From NCBI GenBank assembly GCA_025454925.1, contig JALONM010000005.1:1-64000 (forward strand): a DNA stretch of 64,000 nucleotides, in the 5' to 3' direction. Under the pieces are notes generated by a model. That model made no database searches, was not told the DNA's origin, and worked only from the letters and a program-made list of their open reading frames with translations. The number at the start of each line of letters is the position of its first letter. Positions within the stretch are counted from its first letter, which is position 1. Positions 16,484-58,751 of the stretch are shown here, one piece after another. A program made the position numbers and the translations under genes. Source of the stretch: Cytophagaceae bacterium (GTDB taxonomy: Bacteria > Bacteroidota > Bacteroidia > Cytophagales > Cytophagaceae).

Positions 16484-17124
16484 ATGCTCTCACTCGAATT
16501 GCCTTGCATCTCCTTAAGCCGTACATTTTAAGACGTTGATCGCTGTTGGTGATGCAGCTAAATCTCTACGCCATCTTTATTTAGTATTCAAACTCAAGAT
16601 TCTGGTATGCAAAACCTGTTAGCATGGCGTTGTGGGCGCGACGCCAACAGGCTTTACACTCTGTCCCTCACGGCAAAACCAGCATTTGTTTTATAAGCTC
16701 CTGATTTTTCTATTTCGGGATTACCGTCCATGGATCTACGATCCATGAGCTTTCTCCATCGCGCGATTCGCATCTATGGAGAAAAGCCGGTTAAATACAG
16801 ATTACACGGTAGATTTCATGTTGCATAACGGAATTGAAGGCATAACGACTGTTATTGACAGGGAGATGTTTCCGGCCCGGATAGAGCAAAAAGCCCGCGG
16901 CAGGCAGTGTTGCTAAGTACCGCTGCTGGCGCGGCCTTGACGCGATAGCCGGATAAGCCGGCCAACCAATTATTCTTACCGATTTACTTGCAATAAAAAC
17001 ATAGAGAAAACCGCTTAGCTTGGATGCATTTTGTTGGTATACTCTTAGCCGTTATGACCCAAAACAAGGCGCTATTGTTCAGCAAACCCATTGTATTATC
17101 GTTTTTCTAAATGACCAACGATTT
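16484..17124. other. Gene-free block rich in inverted repeats
   Basis: About 640 bases with no credible coding frame. It contains a probable decayed copy of the dispersed palindromic element (16634-16675), an inverted repeat CCTGTT-GGCGT / ACGCC-AACAGG around it (16615-16652), the hairpin CATGGATC-TAC-GATCCATG (16729-16747), the hairpin TTTCTCCAT...ATGGAGAAA with downstream AGCCGGTT (16751-16792), and a GC-rich segment (about 16870-16972) with repeated CCGG/GCCGG words. The rhomboid gene ends at its right border. Confidence 0.6.
16634..16675 (+). repeat. Probable decayed copy of the dispersed palindromic element
   Basis: GGGCGCG, then AACAGGCT and TCCCTCACG occur in the same order as GGGCGTG, CGGGCTAT and CTATCCCTCACGC of the two intact copies at 45419 and 58664, but the hairpins between them are lost or shortened. 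Confidence 0.4.
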
Positions 17125-45418: not shown

Positions 45419-45505
45419 GGGCGTGCCCCCTATGGCGCTAAAGGCGCCATAGGGGTCGGGCTATCCGTTCCGGCGCCTGCGGCGCCCCACTTCTATCCCT
45501 CACGC
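45419..45505 (+). repeat. Dispersed palindromic element, copy A
   Basis: An 87-base element: GGGCGTG, hairpin 1 (CCCCTATGGCGC 45427-45438 / GCGCCATAGGGG 45444-45455, 12 bp perfect), CGGGCTAT, hairpin 2 (GGCGCC-TGC-GGCGCC 45472-45486) and CTATCCCTCACGC (45493-45505). It is much more GC-rich than its surroundings. Copy B lies at 58664-58751; unpaired blocks are conserved while the stem sequence differs with compensating changes. Confidence 0.8.
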
Positions 45506-45555
45506 AAATACTAGCCCGGCAGAACAGATGGAATTTCTCTTCAGAAATTCTTCTA

Positions 45556-45586
45556 TTGAGAAAAGCCGGTTTAATTGCTACTTTTG
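45556..45586 (+). promoter_or_regulatory. Promoter of hisS
   Basis: TTG (45556-45558), 20-base spacer, TACTTTTG (45579-45586). The ATG is 74 bases downstream of the -7 box. The spacer contains AAAAGCCGGTT, also found next to a hairpin at 16781-16792. Confidence 0.75.
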
Positions 45587-58663: not shown

Positions 58664-58751
58664 GGGCGTGTCCTTCGTGGCGCTGAAAGCGCCACGAAGG
58701 ACCGGGCTATTCGCTTTAGCGCCTGTGGCGCATCGCTGCTATCCCTCACGC
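58664..58751 (+). repeat. Dispersed palindromic element, copy B
   Basis: An 88-base element with the same order as copy A: GGGCGTG, hairpin 1 (58671-58683 / 58689-58701, 13 bp perfect, loop TGAAA), CGGGCTAT (58703-58710), hairpin 2 (GCGCC-TGT-GGCGC, 58719-58731) and CTATCCCTCACGC (58739-58751). An additional 10-bp perfect hairpin, GTGCCGGCGC-ATT-GCGCCGGCAC (58752-58774), follows at once and is absent from copy A. Confidence 0.8.

Follow-up and report, generated by a model that had tools for sequence, protein, structure and literature searches.

What kind of element keeps its folded structure while parts of its sequence change from copy to copy? The question is raised by two intergenic repeats, copies A and B, in a window of 64,000 nucleotides from a Cytophagaceae bacterium (the whole stretch of DNA analysed; contig JALONM010000005.1, positions 1 to 64,000), in which a sequence-only reading had recognised a dispersed palindromic element of REP/RAYT type or of some other non-autonomous kind. 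Both copies lie exactly where that reading had placed them (Table 1), and a word search of the window re-located their shared blocks: the 13-mer CTATCCCTCACGC occurs only at 45493 and 58739, that is in copies A and B, and GGGCGTG and CGGGCTAT are found on the forward strand of both (45419 and 58664; 45457 and 58703) and once each as an isolated reverse match (36101 and 2452, respectively). The V1 stems (CCCCTATGGCGC.. in A, TCCTTCGTGGCGC.. in B) are unlike in sequence and, as folding bore out, paired in both, and the DNA folds of the two copies are more stable than those of dinucleotide shuffles (z of about -4 to -6). As described, they are intergenic, the nearest ORFs being 337 and 156 bases away from A and 194 and 233 bases from B, and GC-rich (0.70 and 0.65 against 0.417 for the window). 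The degenerate third match reported at 16634-16675 is also real and somewhat longer, but it comprises only a decayed 3' half (copy C), which falls below detection by our covariance models R1 and R2 (E≤1) and whose CAAAACCAGC flank is found 3' of full copies as well.

Table 1. Positions of the element copies and of their parts in the window
Feature	Positions	Strand	Basis or remark
Copy A, complete element	45419..45505	+	sequence, folding, covariance models R1 and R2
Copy A, 5' frame GGGCGTG	45419..45425	+	GCGTG pairs with CACGC at 45501-45505
Copy A, cassette V1	45426..45456	+	12-bp hairpin flanked by unpaired pyrimidines C and T
Copy A, frame CGGGCTAT	45457..45464	+	GGGCTAT opposite CTATCCC (G-C three times, C.U, U-A, A-U, U.C)
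Copy A, cassette V2	45465..45492	+	hairpin GGCGCC-TGC-GGCGCC
Copy A, 3' frame CTATCCCTCACGC	45493..45505	+
Copy B, complete element	58664..58751	+	sequence, folding, R1 and R2
Copy B, GGGCGTG	58664..58670
Copy B, V1	58671..58702
Copy B, CGGGCTAT	58703..58710
Copy B, V2	58711..58738
Copy B, CTATCCCTCACGC	58739..58751
Copy C, decayed 3' half	16609..16683	+	remnant V2, then CTGTCCCTCACGG at 16661-16673, then CAAAACCAGC flank

A conserved frame with two variable inserts

Copies A and B are recovered with E-values of 9e-20 and 9e-19 by R1 and of 5e-14 and 4e-12 by R2, values that hold partly by construction, R1 having been trained on 21 copies and R2 on 40 with A and B in both; independent support for the family comes from the 41 places in the same genome that copy A matches by blastn and from exact matches across the phylum. 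The covariance-model search that the sequence-only reading had suggested retrieved at least 144 matches in this genome (R1, E≤0.01; a lower bound, 150 candidates having been scored) and more across Bacteroidota, and a strict pattern matched 38 times forward and 39 times in reverse, its reversed control giving no match in any genome searched. Such genome-wide copies, together with the covariation described below, bear out a dispersed element with compensating stem changes.

Between sharp conservation edges at TTT and R, each copy reads TTT-GGGCGTG-Y-V1-Y-CGGGCTAT-V2-CTATCCCTCACGC-R, the frame from GGGCGTG to CTATCCCTCACGC forming a three-way junction with two hypervariable inserts that RNAalifold recovered without prior structure. 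The outer stem pairs GCGTG with CACGC, CCC/GGG closes the V1 hairpin, which has an unpaired pyrimidine on either side (C/T, T/C or T/T, almost never C/C), and the second arm, GGGCTAT/CTATCCC, carries V2 and holds an invariant C.U and U.C around two Watson-Crick pairs. Across 274 distinct copies, many of them related so that the counts are not numbers of independent events, the C.U mismatch was kept in 274 and the U.C in 273, the inner pair of this arm was A-T in 248, T-A in 15, G-C in 5 and C-G in 2 with a neighbouring T-A or C-G, an outer-stem pair was G-C in 253 and T-A in 12, and the GGG/CCC arm had become GTG/CAC four times. Rarer compensations of the outer stem are GCATG/CATGC in one copy and the change of GCGTG to GCGTT/AACGC. 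In the 40-copy alignment, in which the outer and inner helices do not vary and V1 therefore supplies the whole signal, doubly changed cells numbered 37 against 22.2 for shuffles, none of 500 shuffles reaching the observed count, and paired cells amounted to 87% against 42-72% for slid structures. The stems thus do covary in additional copies. In genus g5 the whole element folds no better than shuffles.

Among 75 copies of this genome almost every V1 and V2 is distinct. The similarity of two copies in V1 is nearly uncorrelated with their similarity in V2 (r=0.18), and 9 of 27 pairs with near-identical V1 carry unrelated V2; given this weak linkage, the two cassettes are shuffled almost independently among the copies of this genome. 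The number of copies, together with lineage-specific expansions elsewhere, further indicates that copying has happened.

Several cassettes deserve separate mention. One V2 (locus L034, G000:C33:16121-16247) contains a long G/C homopolymer hairpin, GGGGG followed by 17 C, which may be an artefact of assembly or else a hypermutable tract. The V2 tips of four Algoriphagus loci (L142, L154, L176, L186) hold short palindromes such as CCCCGATAACTATCGGGG, resembling nested small repeats, and the V1 hairpins of L275-L279 (genome G366) reach about 60 bases with wholly different stems, four of the five sharing the loop word CTTTGCG as if new stems had been built around a retained loop. The window also contains a second family of dispersed palindromes, TCGGGATTACCGGCCATGGATCTACGATCCATGAGCTTTCTCCAT...ATGGAGAAAAGCCGGTT, at 16715-16800 and at about 45540-45570, of which this genome has at least 42 copies that are about 90% identical; for 33 of 74 copies of the main element a word resembling its ends is found within 400 bases, and one copy of the second family comes directly after a RAYT fragment (L046), so that this RAYT could be the REP partner of the second family.

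Carriers and orthologous loci

Public genomes contain the exact pattern in no fewer than 81 stretches, spanning dozens of genera, with carriers in Flavobacterium, Chryseobacterium, Epilithonimonas, Elizabethkingia, Algoriphagus, Niabella, Taibaiella, Saprospiraceae, Fulvivirgaceae and others; it also appears in a few Fibrobacterales, Delongbacteria and Planctomycetaceae assemblies, matches that could be contamination or transfer. With the broader model R2, 48 of 296 Bacteroidota genomes were positive, a lower bound given the strict filters, and carrier genomes hold from 1 to more than 140 copies each; the presence of the element in other Bacteroidota, mentioned in the sequence-only reading, is thus confirmed. 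Plasmids carry variants with GCGTT/AACGC and CTTT/CAAT (62 records, almost all from Bacteroidales), and the element was found in 10 contigs of viral collections. In conjugative plasmids of Bacteroidales, the stop codon of a small serine-recombinase gene marks the start of a variant copy (L345 5408-6078, NZ_CP018939.1); a serine recombinase as repeated partner of the element was rejected, this being one homologous plasmid family only. A diverged subfamily, TGGCGTTTCCC...GTGCTGT...CCATCACTAACGC, is represented in G366 by three near-identical copies (L281-L283), which suggests recent copying.

Only 2 of 74 copies of this genome lie inside an ORF. Across 80 named 8-kb loci the neighbouring genes are ordinary ones, among them ileS and a rhodanese/trhO-like gene, and they recur only because the loci are orthologous. 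The upstream gene runs in the direction of the element in 48 copies and against it in 24 in this genome, in 22 and 42 in g5 and in 12 and 3 in G366, and a fixed relation to transcription was rejected since its sign differs between lineages.

Orthologous loci allow old copies to be followed in place. In g5 each copy has its own unpaired V2 loop of 25-35 bases, and between orthologous copies of four g5 species, in eleven pairwise comparisons that use some loci more than once, identity was 93.5% in the frame, 62% in the V2 loop and 60% in the 60-bp flanks, unrelated g5 loops being 53.5% identical. The frame is retained while loop and flanks drift, and old copies therefore appear to be under selection on the frame; selection is the simplest reading of this retention, repeated conversion of the conserved parts alone being a less likely alternative. 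The g5 V2 loops (L286-L344) have a near-constant length and a weak internal consensus, GGATCANNCTT...TTAAC.AACCTT, giving them a spacer-like look; a role as guides or barcodes is disfavoured, orthologous loops drifting as fast as their flanks.

Upstream of ileS in Algoriphagus and relatives, V1 has undergone compensations in situ (CCCCGCCGAAAAGGGCGGGG, CCCCGACGAAAAGGTCGGGG); at L349 it has been wholly replaced with V2 nearly unchanged, and between L153 and L154, which come from closely related species, share their V1 and have almost identical flanks, V2 has been wholly replaced together with neighbouring unconstrained bases. V1 and V2 are thus shown to be cassettes that change by compensated substitution or by replacement of the whole block, the frame remaining fixed. 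The element is absent upstream of ileS in G051 and G325, where divergence of the intergenic DNA hides the junctions, so that neither genome yielded a clean empty site showing a target duplication.

Weighing the explanations

Our preferred reading, tentative and of somewhat less than even probability, is a REPIN-like non-autonomous element that would act as a folded single-stranded nucleic acid and be recognised, through its frame, by a putative trans-acting protein. New copies would arise rarely, by copying into intergenic DNA, cassettes would be exchanged between copies via the conserved frame, and copies would afterwards be mostly inherited vertically. Such an element would behave as a REPIN population of another architecture, without the Y1 (RAYT) transposase that defines the REPIN system; the looser option of the sequence-only reading, another non-autonomous element, is the leading one. 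Against it counts the conservation of the frame in old copies, which exceeds what a selfish element needs and fits a host function better; the lack of a clean empty site, the g5 elements that fold no better than shuffles and the uneven replication bias described below weigh in the same direction. A mobilising protein was found neither at the Y1 loci described below nor among the adjacent protein families of the 80 loci. If the preferred reading is right, an unannotated structured element that is conserved copy by copy is present in many Bacteroidota, in numbers from one to more than a hundred, an undiscovered recognising protein is predicted, and REPIN-like persistence would be possible without a RAYT; the combination of a marked frame with freely varying inserts makes copying, cassette exchange and selection readable from series of genomes.

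A structured RNA family is the next possibility, one that we regard as rather unlikely. Intergenic loci would transcribe the three-way junction from one strand as a protein-binding RNA, a sponge or an RNA-end element, V1 and V2 being free variable stems. Conservation of individual bases, accompanied by covariation and invariant mismatches, is typical of RNA, the short V2 of the Flavobacterium-like genus g51 has a loop of C(TTCG)G type on the top strand, and the bottom strand is the better RNA fold in 69 of 77 and 69 of 79 copies, although composition accounts for part of this. Set against these points, neither end of the frame has a U-tract, gene orientation differs between lineages, each of the two loop types suits a different strand and chemistry, and Rfam 15 (14 element-bearing loci, E≤1) returned nothing convincing over the element. 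The other loop type, found in g5 and in this genome, has TNC enclosed by a C and a G, or GNA on the bottom strand, and closes 59 of 64 V1 hairpins of g5 as C-TNC-G (C-GNA-G on the bottom strand). GNA loops are a class of stable DNA minihairpins. These loops, the missing U-tract, the inconsistent gene orientation and a replication bias in some genomes point to DNA; energies, mismatches and loop types do not decide between the two, and for the active form we lean, only weakly, towards single-stranded DNA, the bottom strand (GCGTGAGGGATAG...) on the lagging-strand template.

This bias also bears on a host-maintained DNA site, at which a nucleoid, topoisomerase or replication-fork protein would bind an extruded hairpin or cruciform, each copy serving the chromosome. 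Taking dnaA as the origin, orientation relative to replication is biased in the closed genomes G224 (13/16), G366 (16/20) and G259 (9/11), the bottom strand lying on the lagging-strand template, and in 63 of 92 copies when closed genomes are pooled (p=5e-4, an optimistic value, as these three genomes carry the bias and G224 and G366 share orthologous copies); it is absent from the closed genomes G386 and G377 and so is not a general feature. Frame selection at each copy and the intergenic position agree with such a site as well. We nevertheless consider it improbable, for the element is absent from the close relatives G051 and G325 and from most sampled Bacteroidota (48/296 positive as a lower bound), its copy number ranges from 1 to more than 140, and copies reside on plasmids.

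That the copies are true REPINs of a RAYT system is strongly disfavoured and, in our estimate, very unlikely. The shared logic is considerable, with conserved structured ends around a diverse spacer, intergenic position and vertical persistence (PMC8049555), and a shortened RAYT fragment of this genome (L046) lies about 260 bases from a copy. But among 62 Y1_Tnp loci from this genome, its relatives and Flavobacterium-like genomes, class-1 type TnpA included, none is flanked by element copies as its ends, which is the check that the sequence-only reading had proposed. A copy is found within about 1.5 kb at three of them: L046, L390 and L115, the last an IS200-type tnpA with palindromes of its own and one copy upstream, between those palindromes and dinB. 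This genome has only two truncated Y1 fragments, and intact RAYTs carry their own palindromes unrelated to the element (e.g. GCAAGTCTGAAGACTTGC). Y1_Tnp is present in 22 of 22 family or order relatives tested, with and without the element. Conversely, G271 and G342 (99-100% complete) contain at least 13 copies each and no PF01797 match at E≤0.001, and G181 has at least 14 copies and one IS200-type gene. Present activity of the element in G271 and G342 cannot depend on a RAYT, which they may have lost earlier. The hairpin foot moreover has no 5' GTAG/GTGG, and the REP/RAYT-type reading of the locus is not upheld.

Bidirectional intrinsic terminators or mRNA-end hairpins that merely look alike would suit the 29 of 74 copies of this genome that stand between convergent genes and the Bacteroides plasmid copy at the serine-recombinase stop codon, but a terminator requires neither conserved loops nor invariant mismatches nor a primary sequence shared across the phylum, and the upstream gene runs opposite in 42 of 64 g5 copies, which makes terminators a highly implausible explanation. 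Template-switch correction can keep long stems perfect without selection and is possibly a partial cause of the perfection of the V1 and V2 stems, but functionless chance palindromes, or stems kept by such correction alone, are extremely improbable and refuted for the frame, which is identical across dozens of genera, covaries in short stems tens of bases apart and is kept at 93.5% at orthologous loci with flanks at 60%.

Relation to known systems

REPINs and REP-RAYT systems are the closest likeness, being short, intergenic, present in many copies, structured in their conserved parts, diverse in their spacer, persistent and expanded in particular lineages (PMC8049555, PMC3116915). Unlike them, our element has an asymmetric frame with one outer stem and two different arms rather than two inverted REPs, reads GGGCGTG-Y-CCC and GGG-Y-CGGGCTAT where a GTAG/GTGG foot would stand, brackets no Y1 transposase and has some carriers without any, and has its hairpin cassettes replaced in situ. 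RAYT subclass 2.6 (Bertels group 5) has been associated with "atypical secondary structures" in Bacteroidetes (PMC6006769), the same phylum and likewise structures repeated in the genome, but RAYTs of that type are flanked here by other palindromes. Integron attC sites are also recombination sites of folded single-stranded DNA whose stems vary in sequence and length around few conserved bases; the element differs in having no RYYYAAC/GTTRRRY core sites (its ends are GGGCGTG...TCACGC) and no cassette arrays, its copies being single and dispersed. With MITEs, for instance MITECca01 of Cardinium (PMC9769881), it shares small size, dispersal, non-autonomy and inverted end stems, but none of the Y1 transposases examined proved to be a parental IS sharing its ends, conservation is internal as well as terminal, and orthologous copies are kept rather than decaying. 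STAXI and Weinberg-type motifs (PMC2864571) are conserved structured motifs for which RNA or single-stranded DNA is possible and for which UUCG-type loops were taken to argue for RNA; their structure and taxa are other than those reported here.

Searches of the accessible open-licence literature by sequence words and by topic yielded no description of the element. It is doubtful, though worth stating, that we are dealing with a categorically new class, in which a selected phylum-wide three-way-junction frame would hold exchangeable hairpin cassettes and a putative enzyme would swap or copy hairpins through folded single strands, independently of Y1 transposases and integron integrases. The class of dispersed structured intergenic elements is itself known; what is new to us is the architecture, the absence of linkage to RAYTs, the breadth of distribution and the exchange of cassettes.
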